Origin: Pseudidiomarina aestuarii | GTDB lineage: Bacteria; Pseudomonadota; Gammaproteobacteria; Enterobacterales; Alteromonadaceae | Direction of reading: 5' to 3' | Assembly: GCF_003987355.1 (NCBI RefSeq) | Contig: NZ_PIPR01000001.1 | Span: 1,860,001 to 1,924,000 of the forward strand | Length of the DNA: 64,000 nucleotides | Shown here: positions 49,101 to 58,072 of the stretch, piece by piece | Numbering within the stretch: the first letter of the stretch is position 1 | How the letters are laid out: each line of letters opens with the position of its first letter | Made by a program: the position numbers and the translations under genes | Notes under the pieces: model-generated | What the model was told of the DNA's origin: nothing | Seen by the model: only the letters and a program-made list of their open reading frames with translations | Databases searched by the model: none

Positions 49101-49727
49101 TTACGACTTAAGTAGTTTATGTTTAGCAGCAAAGTGAATCAGTTCGGCGGTATTGTTTACACCGACTTTCTTTAGGACTTTACCACGGTGATTTTCGGCA
49201 GTTTTAGTCGACATGGCTAGCAACTCAGCAATATCTCGAGTCGAGCGCCCCTCAATCATAAGATGAAACACCTCTCGCTCCCGTCGTGTTAGTCCATTGA
49301 TGACGGTAGCCCCAGAGTGACTTAAGTTTGAAGCGCTATGACTGCTTTTAGGAAAGACTTTTTTACCTGCTGCTACGAGCTTAATATCCTTTATAAGTTC
49401 AGATGTAGGTGCATCTTTGAGCACATATCCATAGGCGCCAGCTTGTTGCATCGCGTCAACATACTCTTGTTCACTATGCATACTGAGAGCAATAATTTTT
49501 GTATCTGGGCGTTGTTGCAATATTTTATCGAGCGCTACGAAACCATTCATCACCGGCATAGAAATATCAAGGAGAACAACATCAGCAGCGGTTCTTAAAA
49601 CTGCTAAGCTCAGTTCGACTCCATTGGAGCATTCGGCGAGTACTTTGAACTCTCCACTGTGTTCGAGCGCACTTGCGATAGCTTGCCGTACCATCGTGTG
49701 ATCATCGGCAATGATGATGCGAATCAT
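49101..49727 (-). CDS. NarL/LuxR-family response regulator
   Basis: A 208-residue response regulator: receiver domain with ADDH and phosphoacceptor Asp54 (VVLLDISMPVMNG), then a LuxR-type HTH (LTRREREVFHLMIEGRSTRDIAELLAMSTKTAENHRGKVLKKVGVNNTAELIHFA). It overlaps the histidine kinase gene by four bases (ATGA) and is therefore its partner. It is the last gene of the signalling operon, and would convert the upstream kinases' input into transcription. Its targets are unknown. Confidence 0.93.
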   Translation of the reverse strand: MIRIIIADDHTMVRQAIASALEHSGEFKVLAECSNGVELSLAVLRTAADVVLLDISMPVMNGFVALDKILQQRPDTKIIALSMHSEQEYVDAMQQAGAYGYVLKDAPTSELIKDIKLVAAGKKVFPKSSHSASNLSHSGATVINGLTRREREVFHLMIEGRSTRDIAELLAMSTKTAENHRGKVLKKVGVNNTAELIHFAAKHKLLKS

Positions 49728-50461
49728 ACTGAGTGTCCTTCGCCAGGTATGCGAATATAGTACTCAGTCCCTTGTTCTGGGGCAGAACGCATATCTAACT
49801 CTGCACCAAATGCTCGGCATCGATCTGCCAAGCTATGCAATCCGAGACCTGAGTGTGATGAAACCTCAAACCCGATACCGTCATCAGCAACAACCACTTG
49901 AATGCCCCCTGCTTGCCGTTGAATGATCACCTGCATAGTTTTTGCGTGGGCATGTTTGACTGTATTAACACAGATTTCTTGTAGTAGTCGAAACACGAAT
50001 AATTCAAGATCTTTGGATAACCGCTCTGGTAACTCAACATTAACTTGATAAGTGATTCCTGCTGGCTCGAGTAATTGTCGAGCCAACCAAGAAACTGCAG
50101 CACTCAATCCCAAATCACTGAGAATGGTAGGGTGAAGCATGCGCGCGATATCGCGCGCGGAATCGACGGCAAGTGTTGCGGTTTCAATGAGCGATTCACG
50201 AAGAGGCTCGTTGGAGTTTAGGTGCTGTAATTGAGTTTTTAGGCTCGTTAAAACTTGGCCTAAACCATCATGAAGTTCTCTTGATAATTGAGCACGCTCA
50301 TGTTCTTGCTGTAACCATAAGCGCTGAGCTATTTGATTTAATTGTTCCTCTTCACCAATCAATTGTTTGCGTAAGTCTGCCTGCTGCTGTCGAAGCTCGG
50401 TAAGCAGAGAAAGGAGTTCATTGTTGTCTGAGGAAATTTTGATATTGTTGTTGTTGTCCAT
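49724..50461 (-). CDS. Sensorless cytosolic histidine kinase (HisKA_3 type)
   Basis: A 245-residue NarX/DesK-like kinase. After a coiled coil (residues ~12-55) come the phosphoacceptor His64 in QLSRELHDGLGQVLTSLK and a HATPase domain with ADDGIGF and GLGLHSLADR. There is no transmembrane helix and no input domain, so the signal must come from another protein, most likely through the coiled coil. Its 5' end overlaps the Ser/Thr kinase gene by 44 bp, which suggests the two proteins act together. Confidence 0.92.
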   Translation of the reverse strand: MDNNNNIKISSDNNELLSLLTELRQQQADLRKQLIGEEEQLNQIAQRLWLQQEHERAQLSRELHDGLGQVLTSLKTQLQHLNSNEPLRESLIETATLAVDSARDIARMLHPTILSDLGLSAAVSWLARQLLEPAGITYQVNVELPERLSKDLELFVFRLLQEICVNTVKHAHAKTMQVIIQRQAGGIQVVVADDGIGFEVSSHSGLGLHSLADRCRAFGAELDMRSAPEQGTEYYIRIPGEGHSV

Positions 50462-53400
50462 CGGTCATTTGCTCAAAAAGTCGCTGTTGAGCCTCCATGG
50501 CCGCGGTTTCTAAAATAGCACGTTCCGAGTGTGTTGAGATGCGCTGATAATATTCAGCATTTCGCCAGTATAGAGGATAGCGCTTTAAAAGCATAAGAAG
50601 TTCAGCGAGCGCTGTATCATCTTGATGAATGAGCGCAATTAAGTAATCCATGCGAGTCGCGTACATCGTTGGCGAGACGAAATCAGCTAGAAAATCCCAG
50701 GCAGGATGAGTGGTTGGAATGCCAATACGAGAGATTATATCAGCAGCAATTCGAGCTTTTAGTACTTGACTGTAAGGACCGTCAAGCAGCCTTGTCAAAA
50801 CGTCCTCTAATGGACCTTTTTCTTGAGTGTTTTCGATGTGATTTAATCGCGCTTGCAGCCATTGCTGGGCAATCCGTTGTTCATGGTTTAGTTGTTTACT
50901 AAGTTGCATCAGTTCTGCAACAAAGGGCTCAGCCGATTCTTTGTCAGCTAAGTCGATACTCATTTCTGCAGCCCACAACAGCGCCTCTACGAGTCCTCGT
51001 GAGTCATCAATTTGACGAGCGCTCGCAATCGCATCATCAATGTGTTGGCGTGCGACCTTGAGTTGACTTTGAGCAAACTGCAGTCTGCTTAAAAGCAAGT
51101 AGGTGGCAATCTCTGCTTCAGGTGTGCGTTCTTTATTTTGCAGAATGTCTACAAGTATTTGTTCAGCTTGTCGATATTGCCCGCGCAATAATAATAGTTG
51201 CGTATAGCTCAATTGAGTACTGTGCAGTGTAGCTAAATCTTTGACTTCATTGAAAACTTGAATTGCTTGGCGCCAATACACCTCAGCTAAGCTAAAGTCT
51301 CCTAAGAGAAAGTGCATAAAAGCAACATTATTGACGCTTTGCGCTTGTAAATAATCATCGCTCTCCTGCAATCGTATATCTAAAGATGTTTTGTAGTGTT
51401 TGAGCGCTGCGACATAAAGCCCCTGTTCTTCGAGTAATAAGCCTCGCTCATTCTCAATGTGTGCTATTGCCAGCTTGTCGTTCAATTGTTCAAGAACAGT
51501 TCGGGCTTCGCGAAGTAGATCATCAGCCTCTTGGTAATTTGCCTCTATAGCCCGAACTGTTGCTAAGTTTGCCAGCGTAGTGGCTCTATCTCGGGGGTGC
51601 GTAGTGGCATCGCGGAATTCGAGAGATTCTGTAAAGTAGCGACCAGCAGTAGAGAATTCGGACATGCGTAGGTGAGCAACGCCAAATGCATTTAGAACGA
51701 GACCTTGGCCATAATCATCCTGTAGTTGTCGAAATCGAACGAGTGATTGGGTGAGCTCATTTTCAATGGCCGATTTCGTTTCACTCTGGATAATCTTAAT
51801 TCTAGCAAGTTCAAACCACCAATAAGGTTGGTTCGCATCGACCTCAAGTGCTTGTTGATAGAGGTTTTTAGCTTGCGTTAAATCGTTCATTAAAAATGCT
51901 AGGTTGGCACGCTCGGCAAGTAGGTCAGGACGAGGTTCTGTGCGTTCAAGTAATGCATCAAGACGTGCTGCTGCAGTTTCGTAGTCATCGTTTAATTGCG
52001 CTAATAAAGCTTGTCCGCGGAGTAACCAGAGATTATTTATTGTTGGGCTTTCAATCAGCCGACTCAATGCATCCGAAGCAATTGTAGAAGCATCGAAATC
52101 AAGAGCTATTTGCGCAACGTAATACCAAACTTCAGGCTGAGTCTTACTACTGGTTTGCAATGCAAGGAGTTGTTCCTCGATAGCTTTTTCGGAATCTTCT
52201 CGGAATGCCTTTTGTAATTCTTGTAAATCAAAACTTGCAGCACTGTTGAGTGGAGCTGATATGGGGTCGTCTTGCAAAACCTCTGTAATGTTTTGCAACA
52301 CCGGCTCAATAATATCGCTTAATCGATATTCCGCGAGAGAATAAGTCTGCGTAAACCAATCGCGTTCTCCCGGCATACCTCGTAATGAAATGCGAATAAC
52401 ATTGTCTTGCTCGAGCTTGTACCTTTCAATAATCAGCAAAAACTCTGACTCTAGTAATTGCGTAATACGAGCACGATCGGAGGTATCGCTCAGCGGCGAG
52501 AGACCAAGATTTTCCTCAACAAGACGGACTTGCTGTGGGTCAATTGAATAAACACTACTGTGAGATTGTAAACCAAGATGAATCAAACGAGCGAAGTCGA
52601 CCATTGATGGTTGCTGATAATCGGTGATAATAGTGATGGTTTTTAGTTGATCAGTCTGAGTACTCTCTGAAATAGTCAAGTCACTGTCGGTTTCATTCAG
52701 CCATATACCACCGATTAAACACGCAACAAGCACCGCAACTCCGACTAAAACTCGTCCCTGTGGATTGTGCGAGATTGAAGTATCTAGTTCTTTTCGTACT
52801 TGAGCGAGAGGAGGGCGCTGCGCAGGATCGATGGCTTGAAGTGCGACGCTAAGTGAACTCATTTTACGTCGCCAGCTGCGATCCGAATGAGTCATTGTTG
52901 AACATATGGCTTCGATCACTTTACCGAGACTGTATAGATCGCTCGCTGCCGAAATTTGTCTGTGCTTCCGAACTTCGGGAGCAATCCAAGTTATTGAGCC
53001 TTGCTCTTGATGAGGAGCGGTCAAATATTTACTAATACCGAAATCAAGAAGTACTAAGCGTCCACTCGTATCTATTAAGATATTATCTAACTTGATATCG
53101 CCGTGGATAATATCATTGTCATGACAGGTTTTTAATGCGTCCACAAGTTGTGTTATCCACTGCGCGGCATCATTTTGGTCGGGCTTATTACTTAGTGCGG
53201 TCTGCAAAGGTGTGCCGTTGACAAAGGCCATGGTATAAAATACTAAATGGGCCGTTTGATAAAATTCATAAACATTCACAATGTGGTTATGGTTTAACTG
53301 ACGGGCCATCAATACTTCGTTACGCAAGTTCTCAATTGCGTTTGATGATAAGACGTTGGCTTGAGGGATGAGTTTAATTGCAACGGTAATATCGAGTATT

Positions 53401-53531
53401 CGGTCATGAGCTTTGTAAACTCTCGCTTGACCTCCTTCACCGAGGAGAGCAAGCAACTCAAAGCGATCGACAAGTACTTGGCCTACACCCGATTGTTCAG
53501 CGCTCGTGAGTTGCTGAGTTTTCTCGGACAT
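50418..53531 (-). CDS. Ser/Thr protein kinase with transmembrane helix and TPR domain
   Basis: A 1037-residue Hanks-type kinase. Residues 22-250 carry the glycine loop LGEGGQARVYKA, Lys53 in VAIKLI, the catalytic loop HGDIKLDN (Asp145, Asn150), DFG (163-165) and APE (185-187). The loop is HGD, not HRD, so it is a non-RD kinase. A transmembrane helix follows (260-278), then a long region with about a dozen TPR-like repeats (~470-900; ALKHYKTSLDIRLQESDDYLQAQSVNNVAFMHFLLGDFSLAEVYWRQA). The TPR part would lie outside the membrane if the kinase is cytosolic. It is followed by a histidine kinase and response regulator. Confidence 0.92.
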   Translation of the reverse strand: MSEKTQQLTSAEQSGVGQVLVDRFELLALLGEGGQARVYKAHDRILDITVAIKLIPQANVLSSNAIENLRNEVLMARQLNHNHIVNVYEFYQTAHLVFYTMAFVNGTPLQTALSNKPDQNDAAQWITQLVDALKTCHDNDIIHGDIKLDNILIDTSGRLVLLDFGISKYLTAPHQEQGSITWIAPEVRKHRQISAASDLYSLGKVIEAICSTMTHSDRSWRRKMSSLSVALQAIDPAQRPPLAQVRKELDTSISHNPQGRVLVGVAVLVACLIGGIWLNETDSDLTISESTQTDQLKTITIITDYQQPSMVDFARLIHLGLQSHSSVYSIDPQQVRLVEENLGLSPLSDTSDRARITQLLESEFLLIIERYKLEQDNVIRISLRGMPGERDWFTQTYSLAEYRLSDIIEPVLQNITEVLQDDPISAPLNSAASFDLQELQKAFREDSEKAIEEQLLALQTSSKTQPEVWYYVAQIALDFDASTIASDALSRLIESPTINNLWLLRGQALLAQLNDDYETAAARLDALLERTEPRPDLLAERANLAFLMNDLTQAKNLYQQALEVDANQPYWWFELARIKIIQSETKSAIENELTQSLVRFRQLQDDYGQGLVLNAFGVAHLRMSEFSTAGRYFTESLEFRDATTHPRDRATTLANLATVRAIEANYQEADDLLREARTVLEQLNDKLAIAHIENERGLLLEEQGLYVAALKHYKTSLDIRLQESDDYLQAQSVNNVAFMHFLLGDFSLAEVYWRQAIQVFNEVKDLATLHSTQLSYTQLLLLRGQYRQAEQILVDILQNKERTPEAEIATYLLLSRLQFAQSQLKVARQHIDDAIASARQIDDSRGLVEALLWAAEMSIDLADKESAEPFVAELMQLSKQLNHEQRIAQQWLQARLNHIENTQEKGPLEDVLTRLLDGPYSQVLKARIAADIISRIGIPTTHPAWDFLADFVSPTMYATRMDYLIALIHQDDTALAELLMLLKRYPLYWRNAEYYQRISTHSERAILETAAMEAQQRLFEQMTDGQQQQYQNFLRQQ

Positions 53532-53632
53532 ATGCGAATCTCCACGGTACTTGCTGGCGGCAATGGCAGTCTGGGACTTTCAACATAACATAGTTCATAG
53601 TGATGCGGCAGTAATTCTCTTCGAAAGTCTAG

Positions 53633-54487
53633 TTATCCGGCCAGCAGCTGTTGGAGGCGTTCTTCCACCCATTGAAGTTGCAGGTCAATTTGTGCAAAAG
53701 CTAGTTGCGAACTAAGTTGCTGCGCAAATAAGCTGAGAACCGATACATCATGGTCGGTAAAGTAGTGGTGCTGGTGCACATTATCGGCGTAGAAAACGCC
53801 AATAATGCAGTTCGAATACGATATAGGAACCGCTATTGCGGCTTTAATAGAGTGCTCAATAACGCTCCTTTGATCACGTAAGTGTTGGTGTGTTTGAGCA
53901 TTATTGACCGCGACTACGGATCTTGAATTGATCGCTTGCTTGATGAGTGTTTTACTCCCAGAGAAGTGTCCCGGCTCCAACCAATCTGGAAAACCAATGC
54001 ATTGATCAATTCGTGACTTGTCGTTGAGTAAAATCAGTGCAGCTCGTTCACTATGTAAGATATTTTGAGCTCCTTGCTGGGCTTGCGTCAGAAGTCTTTT
54101 CAGGTCGTGCGACTGAATACAATCTTGACGAATAGTTCGCAGTTGTCTGTGTTGCCAAGCGCGGTGCTGCAAGTCGGTTGTCAGCTGTTTATGTGTTAAT
54201 GGCTGCAGTTCAAGTGAGACGGAGCCGATTTTAATCACCGAACGCTCGTGAATGATTTGCTCGGATATTTTACGCTCATCGAAAAAGCAGCCATTAGTGC
54301 TATTCAAATCAGTTATCAACCAATCGCCATCGTGATAACGAACATGTGCATGTCGACGTGAGACACTGCGATCATCAACAACGATATCGCAGTGTTTATC
54401 GCGACCGATAAGATACAAACGCTGCTCAAAGAGAGAACGCTGATCTGCAAATCGGTCCTGATATAAGATTCGACACGTTAATGGCAT
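53633..54487 (-). CDS. FHA-GAF protein
   Basis: A 284-residue protein. Residues ~22-95 form an FHA phosphothreonine-binding domain (LIGRDKHCDIVVDDRSVSRRHAHVRYHDGDWLITDLNSTNG, with GR, SRRH and NSTNG motifs). Residues ~120-275 form a GAF domain (SERAALILLND, AAIAVPISYSNCIIGVFYADN). It lies three bases after the secreted-protein gene and about 100 bp before the Ser/Thr kinase, so the FHA domain probably reads that kinase's output. Confidence 0.9.
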   Translation of the reverse strand: MPLTCRILYQDRFADQRSLFEQRLYLIGRDKHCDIVVDDRSVSRRHAHVRYHDGDWLITDLNSTNGCFFDERKISEQIIHERSVIKIGSVSLELQPLTHKQLTTDLQHRAWQHRQLRTIRQDCIQSHDLKRLLTQAQQGAQNILHSERAALILLNDKSRIDQCIGFPDWLEPGHFSGSKTLIKQAINSRSVVAVNNAQTHQHLRDQRSVIEHSIKAAIAVPISYSNCIIGVFYADNVHQHHYFTDHDVSVLSLFAQQLSSQLAFAQIDLQLQWVEERLQQLLAG

Positions 54488-54490
54488 AAC

Positions 54491-55336
54491 TCAGGGTAGC
54501 GTCCGTAAGCTAAAACGTAGCGTTCTGGTCATACTCAAAAGTCTACCGCGGACATTAATGATGTCAGCTGATGAGCGCCAAACATCGGGATACAAAGTTC
54601 CATTGTCGGCCTCGAGCACATCAATGAGCGCGGTGACCTCCTGTAGCGCAACATTCGTGTTACCCTGCGCAACAGCAGAACTGATGGCGCTCACGGCTGA
54701 ACTCAATTGTCCTGCCACTTGGACATCGAGTAAGCCCGCAACGTTCTGGCTGAAACTATCTAAACGATTCACTTTCTCATTGATAACTGTCGCCGCGGAA
54801 CGCAGGTCAGCGAGGATAATAAAATCGGAAAACTGCCCACCTGTACCACGAACGCGGTAGCTACCTGAACCAGTCATCGTGGTAATATCTTCGAACACTT
54901 CAGTTCCATGGGAGTGGAACAAACGTAATGGTGTTCCCTCTGTGTAATGCAGCGTTTTCGTGTACAGTTCAATGTTTGCGGTGCCACTAAATGCAAATCC
55001 TTTGTTAGGGTCGGGTTCAACCGAAATCAACACTGGGAAAGTGCCCGGCAACGTAGTTAATAAACTGTCAGGTAGACGGCTGAGTAAACTGGGATCGTTT
55101 AAACTCAGAAGCTCTGCTGTGATCTGAAAGTTATCTGGTGTTAAGCCGATAGCATTATCAAATTTGATTGAAAAATCTAAAGAGACCGTTGATGACAATT
55201 CAATATCAGCGCGTACCTGATTTGCTGCTTGATTAAATGTTAATTCAACATTCGCCAAAGCATTTGCTGAAAAAAGCAGCGGCAATGCGATTAGAGGCAA
55301 ACGGACTTTCAAAAGAATTTGTCTTATAAACGACAT
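54491..55336 (-). CDS. Unrecognised secreted protein
   Basis: A 281-residue protein with a signal peptide (cleavage near ALA-NVELTF), a beta-rich half (VSLDFSIKFDNAIGLTPDNFQITAELLSL) and a helical C-terminal half (LDSFSQNVAGLLDVQVAGQLSSAVSAISSAVAQGNTNVALQEVTALIDVLE). I do not recognise a family. Position directly before the FHA gene (three-base gap), at the head of the kinase operon, makes it a candidate extracellular partner or sensor ligand for the TPR kinase; that is inference. Confidence 0.7.
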   Translation of the reverse strand: MSFIRQILLKVRLPLIALPLLFSANALANVELTFNQAANQVRADIELSSTVSLDFSIKFDNAIGLTPDNFQITAELLSLNDPSLLSRLPDSLLTTLPGTFPVLISVEPDPNKGFAFSGTANIELYTKTLHYTEGTPLRLFHSHGTEVFEDITTMTGSGSYRVRGTGGQFSDFIILADLRSAATVINEKVNRLDSFSQNVAGLLDVQVAGQLSSAVSAISSAVAQGNTNVALQEVTALIDVLEADNGTLYPDVWRSSADIINVRGRLLSMTRTLRFSLRTLP

Positions 55337-55441: not shown

Positions 55442-55468
55442 AAAAAAGAGGCTCCAGATTGGAGCCTC
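55442..55468 (-). terminator. Terminator after the subtilase gene
   Basis: GAGGCTCC (55448-55455) pairs perfectly with GGAGCCTC (55461-55468); on the minus strand it runs into six T (complement of 55442-55447). It lies just after the subtilase stop, so the protease is mostly transcribed separately from the kinase operon that follows. Confidence 0.9.
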
Positions 55469-55484
55469 AAAGGGACTTACAACC

Positions 55485-57965
55485 CTACAAACTTCCCAAG
55501 TATTGCGAATATAATCGTCCCGCCGTCAAAGCATACCCTGCTCGTGTCATCTCTTGTCCCGGAGAAAAGCTTGCCGTGAGTCGCGGCTGCAAGTCAAAAG
55601 GCCCTTGTTCGACTGTAAAGTCAACATTTAAGAGTGATAGTTGAATTGCAAGCTGCACATAGCCTTTTCGGTCAGCTGGAATTTCATCTTGGTCGGCAAG
55701 CACGATAGAGTCATCGCGATAATTCACTACAATGTCTTGCTCAGGGTCAAAACTGCGAGCGACATCCTCTAATCCAAGTACTTGAACAAGTGTATAAGCT
55801 AAATCCAGTTTGGATACCGTACCGCGAGGCTCAAAGTTGCCATTTGTGCTCTCTAACACAGGCGCTTGCGTTTGCGCATTATCCTTCAGTGCCCCGCCAG
55901 TTGCACTTACAGCTTTAGCAACGGCCGTGTACTCTCTGGGTACATTAAAGAGCTCAAGTTGATCCTCGTTCAGTAGATCGCGATACTGGCGAATCGCCGC
56001 GCCCATCACTAGATATTGCGAAAGGTCTTGTCGCAAGATCGCTCTGTCTGGCTGAAACTTACCGTTATTTAAACCATCAACCAAACGCTCGCTTACTGCA
56101 AACTCGATTGCATTTTGTAGCGGGTGTCCCTCAATATCATCGACTCCTTCGTATCCGCCGCCAAGCTCGAATGATACTTGACCACTAACTACCTCAGGTA
56201 CGCCCGGACCGTTCGTTAATCCGAGCGGGTCAGGATTTACGCCAGATAAGGATGTGAGGCCAAATACATAGAGTTGCCAAGTACCTGATTGACCAGGTGC
56301 CGCTACCCGCATGCCGGTATCTAGAGCCGGTAAGGTTAAATTGCCAGAAAATTCTGTTCCATCCGGTGCGACTAGTACGAGTTTAGTCGTATTAGCAAGA
56401 TTCTCGGCGCTCGCCTTGACCCATGTCACATCGTTGCCGACTTCAAAACTAAACGTTTCTGGCTCGCCAACGGGGCTGTAAAGAACTTCAAATGGTTCCA
56501 CGCGATCTGAGCTGATTGTTATAGCATTGGCATTGAACGTATTCAGGTTGTTTACACTAGACGCATAGTCCAAATTCTCGCCAAGAGCTGCTGCTACAGC
56601 TGCTTTTGCGTTAATATATCCACCACCAACTTCCCATTTCTCGAACCCCGGCATATTAGTCGCGGTTTCTTGTATCAACTGTTTGATTTCAAGAATGGAG
56701 AGATCTGGGTTTGCTTCCATCATCAACGCAATAATGCCAGCGACGTGAGGCGTAGCCATGGATGTTCCCGAGATCATGGTATAAAACGGTAAGTACTCTG
56801 TTTCAATAGCCTCAATGTCAGCATCGCCGCCATTTGCGACTAAGTTTGTGCTGGCGCGCGTAGAGATAATATTCACGCCAGGAGCAACAATGCTGACTTC
56901 ATTGTTATAAGTCCATTCGGTATTATCAGGCATGGTAAAGCTTCCGCTTTCGCCCTTTAATCCGCGAGATGAAAAGCCTGCTAAGTTACCAAACTTATCT
57001 CCTGCGCCAACCGACATACCCCAAGGAATTTGAGCATAAGGATTGTGACTGTCCTCACCAGGGCCAGAGTTTCCGGCTGCAAAGACAGACATTATCCCGA
57101 GTTTGTATGCCTTATATGATGCGATACTAACCGGATCATCTGGACTAAATTTACCGCTTGAGCCCCAAGAGTTACTCATAATTCGAATCGGAGAGTTGAA
57201 AGAAAATACATTGTTGATCGCATAATCATAGCCCCCGACAGCATCGAGAATAGCGATGGCAGCACCCGAGCCATAGCCAACTAAATCTGCACCTGGAGCT
57301 GCACCCATGTACTTACCATCAGACATCACTCCGGACCCCGCGATAGTTCCCGCGCAGTGGGTTCCATGCCCACTGTTTGTATCGGTATTGATTTGGCTTT
57401 CGAGAACGATCCCATCAGTTACGGGAACTATACTCAACGCCTGAGCATGAGTTAGACCCTGCGCATTCTCAACTACCGTATCGCCAAACAGAAGATCTTG
57501 ATGTGCTGCATCGATACCGGAGTCATTGACTACAATGGTGACCCCTGTTCCATCAAAAGTCGTATTATTGCGTTGAAAAAATTCGTTGCTTTGTAATTGA
57601 TCTACGCCAGTAATTTGGCGCGCATCCGCGTTAAAGTATTTCAGCGGGCGATTTAACCATATTGAGCGGACGTCAGATTTTTTAGCGATTTGCTCGATTT
57701 GTTGTGGTGTTGCGAGAACCCCAATAATGGGAAGTGAGGAAAACTGAACACCTTCTGTAATGTCAAGGTCCAGTAGCTCAGTTAACTGAGCTTCTGAAAC
57801 AGGCTCAAGTTGGTTATAAGTAACTACCACCATAACTTGTTCAGTCGTGGACAAACTCGGTAACTTAGCTTGCAGTTGTTCGCCGATTGCGGCTTCCGCG
57901 GCTGCTTGGCCGGGTGCAATTGCGAGTGTCAATGCGGCAATAGTCGAGAGAGTGAATTTTTTCAT
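55485..57965 (-). CDS. Secreted S8 serine protease (subtilase) with S-layer-homology-like repeats
   Basis: An 826-residue exported protease: signal peptide (to about residue 24), inhibitor-like prodomain (~30-110), and a subtilisin catalytic domain with Asp148 (VVNDSGIDAAH), His200 (NSGHGTHCAG), oxyanion Asn299 (AAGNSG) and Ser402 (SGTSMATPHVAG). The C-terminal ~200 residues contain two S-layer-homology-like segments (AVSERLVDGLNNGKFQPDRAILRQDLSQYLVMG; YVQLAIQLSLLNVDF...TRAGYAL). Such repeats usually anchor proteins to cell-wall polymers in Gram-positives and are unusual here. It stands upstream of the kinase operon. Confidence 0.92.
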   Translation of the reverse strand: MKKFTLSTIAALTLAIAPGQAAAEAAIGEQLQAKLPSLSTTEQVMVVVTYNQLEPVSEAQLTELLDLDITEGVQFSSLPIIGVLATPQQIEQIAKKSDVRSIWLNRPLKYFNADARQITGVDQLQSNEFFQRNNTTFDGTGVTIVVNDSGIDAAHQDLLFGDTVVENAQGLTHAQALSIVPVTDGIVLESQINTDTNSGHGTHCAGTIAGSGVMSDGKYMGAAPGADLVGYGSGAAIAILDAVGGYDYAINNVFSFNSPIRIMSNSWGSSGKFSPDDPVSIASYKAYKLGIMSVFAAGNSGPGEDSHNPYAQIPWGMSVGAGDKFGNLAGFSSRGLKGESGSFTMPDNTEWTYNNEVSIVAPGVNIISTRASTNLVANGGDADIEAIETEYLPFYTMISGTSMATPHVAGIIALMMEANPDLSILEIKQLIQETATNMPGFEKWEVGGGYINAKAAVAAALGENLDYASSVNNLNTFNANAITISSDRVEPFEVLYSPVGEPETFSFEVGNDVTWVKASAENLANTTKLVLVAPDGTEFSGNLTLPALDTGMRVAAPGQSGTWQLYVFGLTSLSGVNPDPLGLTNGPGVPEVVSGQVSFELGGGYEGVDDIEGHPLQNAIEFAVSERLVDGLNNGKFQPDRAILRQDLSQYLVMGAAIRQYRDLLNEDQLELFNVPREYTAVAKAVSATGGALKDNAQTQAPVLESTNGNFEPRGTVSKLDLAYTLVQVLGLEDVARSFDPEQDIVVNYRDDSIVLADQDEIPADRKGYVQLAIQLSLLNVDFTVEQGPFDLQPRLTASFSPGQEMTRAGYALTAGRLYSQYLGSL

Positions 57966-58072
57966 CTTGAATCCCTACCGTTCGGTATTGTGTATTATTT
58001 AAACGGCCTTTATCGTCACAAGTACATGCATGCACTGATATAGGGGTTTCCCCCCAATTTGAGCCAAGAGTT

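Follow-up and report, generated by a model that had tools for sequence, protein, structure and literature searches.

Bacterial Ser/Thr kinases that feed into two-component systems are mostly known from cross-talk between systems that are encoded separately. In Bacillus subtilis, DegS is a HisKA_3 histidine kinase and DegU a NarL-type regulator that controls the subtilisin AprE, and the Ser/Thr kinases that act on DegS are encoded elsewhere. Here we describe a locus of Pseudidiomarina aestuarii that appears to bring the two kinds of phosphorylation together. It lies in a stretch of 64,000 nucleotides of contig NZ_PIPR01000001.1 (positions 1,860,001 to 1,924,000 of the forward strand; the whole of this stretch is called the window) and consists of five adjacent genes, which encode a secreted DUF6689 protein, an FHA-GAF protein, a Hanks-type Ser/Thr kinase (STK) with tetratricopeptide repeats (TPR), a soluble histidine kinase (HK) and a response regulator (RR) (Table 1). 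The five genes form one conserved unit, in an arrangement far beyond chance; the parts are of known kinds, and the set of five was not found described in the open-licence literature that was searched.

Several described systems share features with this locus. DegS-DegU resembles it in having a cytosolic kinase with a regulator and an input from Hanks-type kinases: according to PMC3033389, DegS is phosphorylated by them in vitro, which raises transfer to DegU. It differs in that DegS has an input domain that carries the phosphorylated serine. Models of DegS and DegU are not among the NCBIfam matches listed for HK and RR, in a library whose content for such models is unverified. To our knowledge, the DegS-DegU operon has no FHA-GAF, DUF6689 or TPR receptor kinase gene. 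In Xanthomonas citri, the transmembrane Hanks-type kinase PknS comes with its own transcription factor, EcfK, but this partner is reported to be an extracytoplasmic function (ECF) sigma factor and the output a type VI secretion system (PMC13147305). A locus of the PknS-EcfK type was set aside, as the regulator gene of the window encodes a receiver-GerE protein; no other search for a sigma factor was made.

The Myxococcus Esp system (EspA, PktA5 and PktB8) also couples an FHA domain, a His kinase and Ser/Thr kinases, and there the FHA domain is part of the histidine kinase itself. EspA was rejected as an identity for the FHA-GAF protein (38.8 bits against a cut-off of 1400), as was TagH, the FHA protein of the type VI Ser/Thr pathway (48.0 bits against 120.25). 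Cyanobacterial Ser/Thr-His kinase fusions of the HstK type, work on which is cited in PMC1262709, likewise unite both kinase domains, but they are one fused protein, whereas in the window operon the genes are separate and include those of a transmembrane receptor and of a dedicated regulator. The nearest NCBIfam models for the HK core are those of the UhpB, MctS and NarQ-type kinases (UhpB, 120.6 bits); HK is far below their equivalog cut-offs (408 and more) and has no membrane or sensor part. The coupling in the window looks hard-wired, in that a receptor STK, a presumed phosphothreonine reader, an HK devoid of input domain and an RR are inherited as one string.

The preliminary description of this DNA had named the five genes on one strand, with overlaps, and the open reading frames (ORFs) are on the minus strand at those positions, with the named domains. 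At the level of order, family and phylum, DUF6689 is present in 6 of 148, 15 of 196 and 3 of 398 genomes, respectively, which makes 20 distinct genomes. The window's genome aside, these have 20 loci (two of them in G614), and in every one DUF6689, FHA-GAF, STK, HK and RR are arranged as in the window and on one strand, with proteins that are 24-61% identical to those of the window. Among named genomes, 40 of 41 DUF6689 loci are complete, and the remaining one, from a metagenome-assembled genome (MAG) of the Parvularculaceae (Alphaproteobacteria), stops at a contig edge inside STK. The range of the operon therefore covers Alteromonadales and Kangiellales (with complete loci that include Kangiella), together with the partial copy in the alphaproteobacterial MAG. 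The 62 loci collected include nine duplicates with identical kinase proteins, which were dropped to leave 53 distinct loci, the window among them. All five genes are together in 52 of the 53, and the last one ends at a contig edge. The preliminary description had proposed a neighbourhood search in relatives, where the genes might have turned out to be mostly apart; they stay together, and its interpretation is supported in part, namely as regards one unit that joins Ser/Thr and His-Asp phosphorylation, by the conserved order and by intact catalytic residues. The 44-bp overlap of the STK and HK genes that it reported is present in the window, and an overlap recurs in all 51 other loci examined, with lengths that are upper limits since the first possible start codon was taken. 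The HK and RR genes overlap by 4 bp.

Since DUF6689 was the means of finding the loci, the counts tell what accompanies DUF6689. In the reverse direction, with at most five candidates per genome scored, six of the 148 genomes searched in the order have STK matches that extend into the TPR ectodomain, and these are the same six that have DUF6689. The kinase protein of the same-genus genome G563 is identical to that of Pseudidiomarina marina (L066, L077).

The catalytic residues of the unit are intact. The catalytic Lys, Glu, HxDxKxxN and DFG of STK are present in all 53 homologues; with its Gly loop and a kinase fold like that of PknB/Stk1, this is a Hanks-type kinase. In an AlphaFold2 model (m188ac72bfe42; mean predicted local distance difference test score, pLDDT, 86.3) the kinase is followed by a helix (about 257-277), then by an alpha/beta domain (297-418) and finally by a superhelix of TPRs (430-1036). 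As modelled, STK has a single membrane helix and a sensor that is predicted to be extracytoplasmic, with the alpha/beta and TPR parts presumably in the periplasm. A simple hydropathy scan found one hydrophobic stretch in 54 of 62 STK sequences, two in five and none in three. The same type of scan found no such stretch in any of 61 HK homologues, and the 52 distinct HK homologues are only 228-273 amino acids long, in agreement with the earlier statement that HK has no input domain. An orthodox sensor histidine kinase was rejected on these grounds, as there is no sensor or transmembrane input region. The HK residues H64, N166, D193, G195 and G197, which belong to the H box and the N, G1 and G2 boxes of a HisKA_3 kinase, are present in 52 of 52 homologues; A45, R47, W49, Q52 and E53 are also conserved. 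Similarly, RR has D9, D54 and K104 in 52 of 52 homologues, and a receiver with phospho-Asp and Lys followed by a GerE domain makes it a NarL/FixJ-type regulator. The residues expected of a phosphothreonine reader (G28, R29, S43, H46 and G66) are present in 51-52 of 53 FHA domains, and the exceptions at R29, S43 and H46 are gaps, probably due to short gene models. At FHA position 65, 33 of the 53 have Asn and 16 have Thr.

The genes that flank the operon vary by clade. When they were clustered, one family, a subtilase, was found in 48 of the 53 loci. A member is located at most 700 bp upstream of DUF6689 on the same strand in 47 of the 53 loci, 46 of the S8-A type (>55% identical) and one, L055, of the S8-C type. 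Downstream, again at no more than 700 bp, 39 loci have a member (35-53% identical, mostly 40-44%). There is a subtilase on both sides in 38 loci and on neither in five; two of these five (L104 and L113) are cut downstream and have nearly 10 kb upstream that is free of subtilases. The boundary that the preliminary description gave to the operon was therefore too tight, since it left out the subtilase gene and the palindrome described below (Table 1). The triad D148/H200/S402 is intact in all 97 subtilases. Searches with the window's subtilase as the query, in which at most 6, 5 and 2 candidates per genome were scored in 148, 196 and 398 genomes, found the family at E<=1e-30 in 6, 13 and 2 genomes, respectively, every one of them DUF6689-positive. 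Altogether, it is present in 17 of the 20 operon-positive genomes and in none of the operon-negative genomes searched. The window's own genome (2.64 Mb) has three paralogous subtilases (55485-57965, L183 and L184) on three contigs, with S8-B and S8-C off the operon's contig; two of the three have SLH-like repeats.

The regions upstream of the subtilase-family genes have a GGG-CCC palindrome in common. A relaxed form, RGGG-N3-5-CCCY, is present in 87 of 96 such regions, compared with 1.28 expected from mononucleotide shuffles (the 97th subtilase, L101, was dropped as too near the contig start). The sites with a four-base centre number 73 and lie a median of 92 bp before the gene, with a consensus of about TAGGGG-WWWW-CCCCTATA. 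The pattern TRRGGGNNNNCCCYYA, which was derived from the three sites of the window's genome, has three matches in that genome, one before each subtilase and thus two before unlinked subtilases on other contigs, and no match in the reversed control. In 1.05 Mb of loci it has 37 exact matches, 29 of them in the regions before subtilases, which total 28.2 kb. For two further genomes of the genus, G594 (three matches) and G563 (two), all exact matches genome-wide precede a subtilase, no more than 300 bp from where the subtilase match begins, and three of these five sites, which belong to subtilases away from the operon, were still unseen when the pattern was drawn up. Four genomes of the genus that lack the operon have 0, 1, 1 and 0 exact matches. 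Since the subtilases accompany the operon and share the palindrome, exported subtilases are the probable target of the relay.

Two observations concern particular genomes. G614 has two whole copies of the operon (L067 and L073), one with subtilases and the other without, and the subtilase-free copy has the palindrome before DUF6689. G621 (C1:630456-637927) and G562 (C59:26846-34305) each have an additional cluster of three S8-A-like genes that is not at the operon; paired palindromes lie between the divergent genes, and one match per cluster has an internal stop.

The reading that we favour, and to which we give about even confidence, is that the locus is a conserved hybrid of a receptor kinase and a two-component system, in which STK feeds the soluble HK, whose RR controls exported subtilases. 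STK would sense an extracytoplasmic cue with its alpha/beta and TPR ectodomain, and the secreted DUF6689 would probably take part in this. The kinase domain would autophosphorylate and then recruit the FHA-GAF protein as an adaptor, and STK would alter the activity of the HK encoded by the overlapping gene. HK would then phosphorylate RR, which may turn on the subtilase genes by binding GGG-N4-CCC palindromes located about 75-115 bp in front of them. On this reading, a family of exported subtilases has a candidate regulator and DUF6689 a functional context. Furthermore, a predicted operator and a small target set (the three subtilases in the window's genome) make the coupling directly testable in culturable marine bacteria.

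Among the sites listed, the exact sites of 38 genomes (those of G122 and G135 are not included) yield 30 further sites in operon-positive and 26 in operon-negative genomes, away from the operon and the subtilase family. The 30 exclude, because of their link to the system, sites before S8 genes or DUF6689 and two sites close to the operon, G516 C33:193900 (3 bp before the RR gene ends) and G107 C1:183006 (about 430 bp before DUF6689). The 30 sites divide into 13 before a gene, nine in ORFs and eight in neither position, and the 26 into five, 19 and two, respectively. Four of the 13 precede exported-looking peptidases from other subfamilies or families, namely S8 in L210, L215 and L217, among them an S8 with a PPC domain, and S15 in L216, whereas none of the 26 sites listed for operon-negative genomes precedes an S8 gene. 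These four sites suggest a wider protease regulon. Other sites of the 13 are in front of genes for a TonB receptor, for a molybdopterin enzyme, for a response regulator and for proteins that have no Pfam match. Of the eight sites in G531, seven (L251-L253 and L255-L258) are repeats that resemble TAGGGGAGC; there is no ORF start near them, most stand, terminator-like, between a run of T and a run of A, and they are probably a separate repeat family.

Several results weigh against the receptor-to-regulator relay as we have drawn it. The palindrome precedes DUF6689 in only 4 of the 53 loci, so that for the most part this operator does not control the operon itself. Only 28 of 94 subtilases have the exact 16-mer before them, and the figure of 87 of 96 requires the relaxed form. 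G584 and G291 carry the operon, and no exact site was found in either genome; G513, G659 and G291 have the operon, and the subtilase family was not found in them. Because the pattern was drawn from known sites and the genomes are related, the tests overstate significance. The contrast between the further sites before genes, 13 of 30 versus 5 of 26, is a weak control (Fisher p 0.085); without the eight G531 sites it becomes 13 of 22 versus 5 of 26 (p 0.007), and an earlier partial count of 12 of 17 versus 2 of 20 (p 2e-4) overstated it. Binding of RR to the palindrome is a step that we infer. The rarity of the palindrome before DUF6689, the three operon-positive genomes without subtilases and the lack of significance when all fetched sites are included would also suit a system in which some other regulator binds the palindrome, the RR of the operon acts elsewhere and the subtilases travel along for a different reason, for instance that the operon senses or processes their products. 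We think this unlikely, in view of the palindrome before DUF6689 itself in L073 and L074, where no subtilase is adjacent, and of the further sites before other peptidases, which were found only in operon-positive genomes (4 of 30, with no S8 in the 26). NarL-type regulators also typically bind short palindromes. A bare coincidence, in which the gene string is kept by common descent with no functional coupling, is hardly credible: DUF6689 was indeed the route to the loci, many of which are from few genera, but the same order is kept at 24-61% identity in two orders amid clade-specific flanking genes, and unlinked subtilases share the palindrome.

The link between STK and HK is also open to a different interpretation. 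Among the first 62 residues of HK there is none at which half or more of the 52 homologues have Ser or Thr, a result that also counts against the proposed relay, and a fixed phosphosite in an input region, as in DegS, is consequently not supported; if STK does act on HK, FHA-GAF or another site may be the route. This absence fits parallel branches, in which STK and FHA-GAF have a separate job (e.g., on RR or on protease secretion), HK answers a cytoplasmic signal and RR integrates the two. The conserved A45, R47, W49, Q52 and E53 of HK may bind a partner, and DegS is reported to integrate many inputs (PMC3033389). We consider such an arrangement rather unlikely, given that the STK and HK genes overlap in every one of the 51 loci and that HK is too short for an input domain in all 52 distinct homologues. 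The subtilase may instead be an input, so that its action on DUF6689 or on the TPR ectodomain triggers STK and the relay adjusts subtilase levels as a feedback. The subtilase and DUF6689, like the kinase ectodomain, have a predicted location outside the cytoplasm, and a subtilase gene adjoins DUF6689 in most loci (47 of 53). However, the operon occurs without the subtilase family in the three genomes named above, and we regard this explanation as unlikely.

The preliminary description had assigned the secreted protein to no known family. It belongs to PF20396 (DUF6689), a family whose function is unknown, with a match well above the gathering cut-off of 27 that covers model positions 12-273 of 275; a literature term search for DUF6689 found no papers. 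A structural model (m38b31eda544f, mean pLDDT 90.0) has a beta domain at about 27-177 and a FIMAH-like four-helix C-terminus (181-278), and a FIMAH match was found in 4 of 42 DUF6689 members (best 2.6e-5). Ser170 is present in 53 of 53 homologues and Phe169 in 52 of 53. Counting back from aligned end points places Ser170 on Ser969 of rat NLRP1 and on Ser912 of BAI2, an approximate assignment. A GAIN/FIIND-like fold for the beta domain is speculative. The catalytic His of GAIN domains is two residues before the nucleophile, and the corresponding position 168 is His in only 1 of 53 homologues; this one, L074, is the sole DUF6689 with a GAIN-like His-Phe-Ser motif at the putative cleavage position. 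His143, which is 27 residues before Ser170 and so has the spacing of the NLRP1-like catalytic His, occurs in 31 of 53. One could imagine, as a long shot, that DUF6689 is a secreted bacterial GAIN/FIIND-like domain that cuts itself, or formerly did so, at Phe169-Ser170, that the freed last strand and the FIMAH-like helical tail act as a tethered or released agonist of the TPR receptor kinase, and that the adjacent subtilase makes or removes this ligand. If true, it would be a bacterial counterpart of the Stachel signalling of adhesion G-protein-coupled receptors, feeding a Ser/Thr-to-His-Asp relay over exported proteases.

Table 1. Features of the locus in window coordinates.
Feature	Position	Strand	Length and evidence
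Response regulator (RR), NarL/FixJ-type, receiver + GerE	49101-49727	-	208 aa; PF00072 85.9 bits, PF00196 56.8 bits
Histidine kinase (HK), soluble, HisKA_3, without membrane segment or input domain	49724-50461	-	245 aa; PF07730 + PF02518 (HATPase_c)
Hanks-type Ser/Thr kinase (STK), TPR, one transmembrane helix	50418-53531	-	1037 aa; PF00069 136.9 bits + TPR
FHA-GAF protein, presumed phosphothreonine reader or adaptor	53633-54487	-	284 aa; PF00498 72.0 bits, PF01590 48.8 bits
DUF6689 secreted protein, signal-peptide-like start	54491-55336	-	281 aa; PF20396 245.6 bits
Terminator-like hairpin + T run, between subtilase and DUF6689 genes	55448-55468	-	9-bp stem, 6 G-C pairs, then TTTTTT
S8-A, secreted S8 subtilase with SLH-like repeat; proposed output and sixth part of the module	55485-57965	-	826 aa; PF00082 128.2 bits, PF00395 31.0 bits
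Palindrome TAGGGGTTTCCCCCCA, proposed RR operator	58041-58056	.	76-91 bp before S8-A

The terminator-like hairpin between the subtilase and DUF6689 genes suggests a separate promoter for the five-gene operon. Similar hairpins are at the equivalent spot in L075-L078 (by eye); in the scan as a whole, six hairpins compare with a shuffle mean of 6.4, i.e., there is no excess. Two other patterns are restricted to some relatives. A direct repeat, TGTAACN4TGTAAC, is present about 35 bp before DUF6689 in L076-L080, in Pseudidiomarina relatives only (5 of 53 loci), and is a possible promoter or site for a second regulator. In the Alteromonas relatives L085, L086, L088 and L094 there is a palindrome about 3.4-3.5 kb downstream of the RR gene, near the start of a small gene for a secreted-looking protein of about 170-220 amino acids; the family of this protein is present in 14 loci, and its gene is a possible further target.

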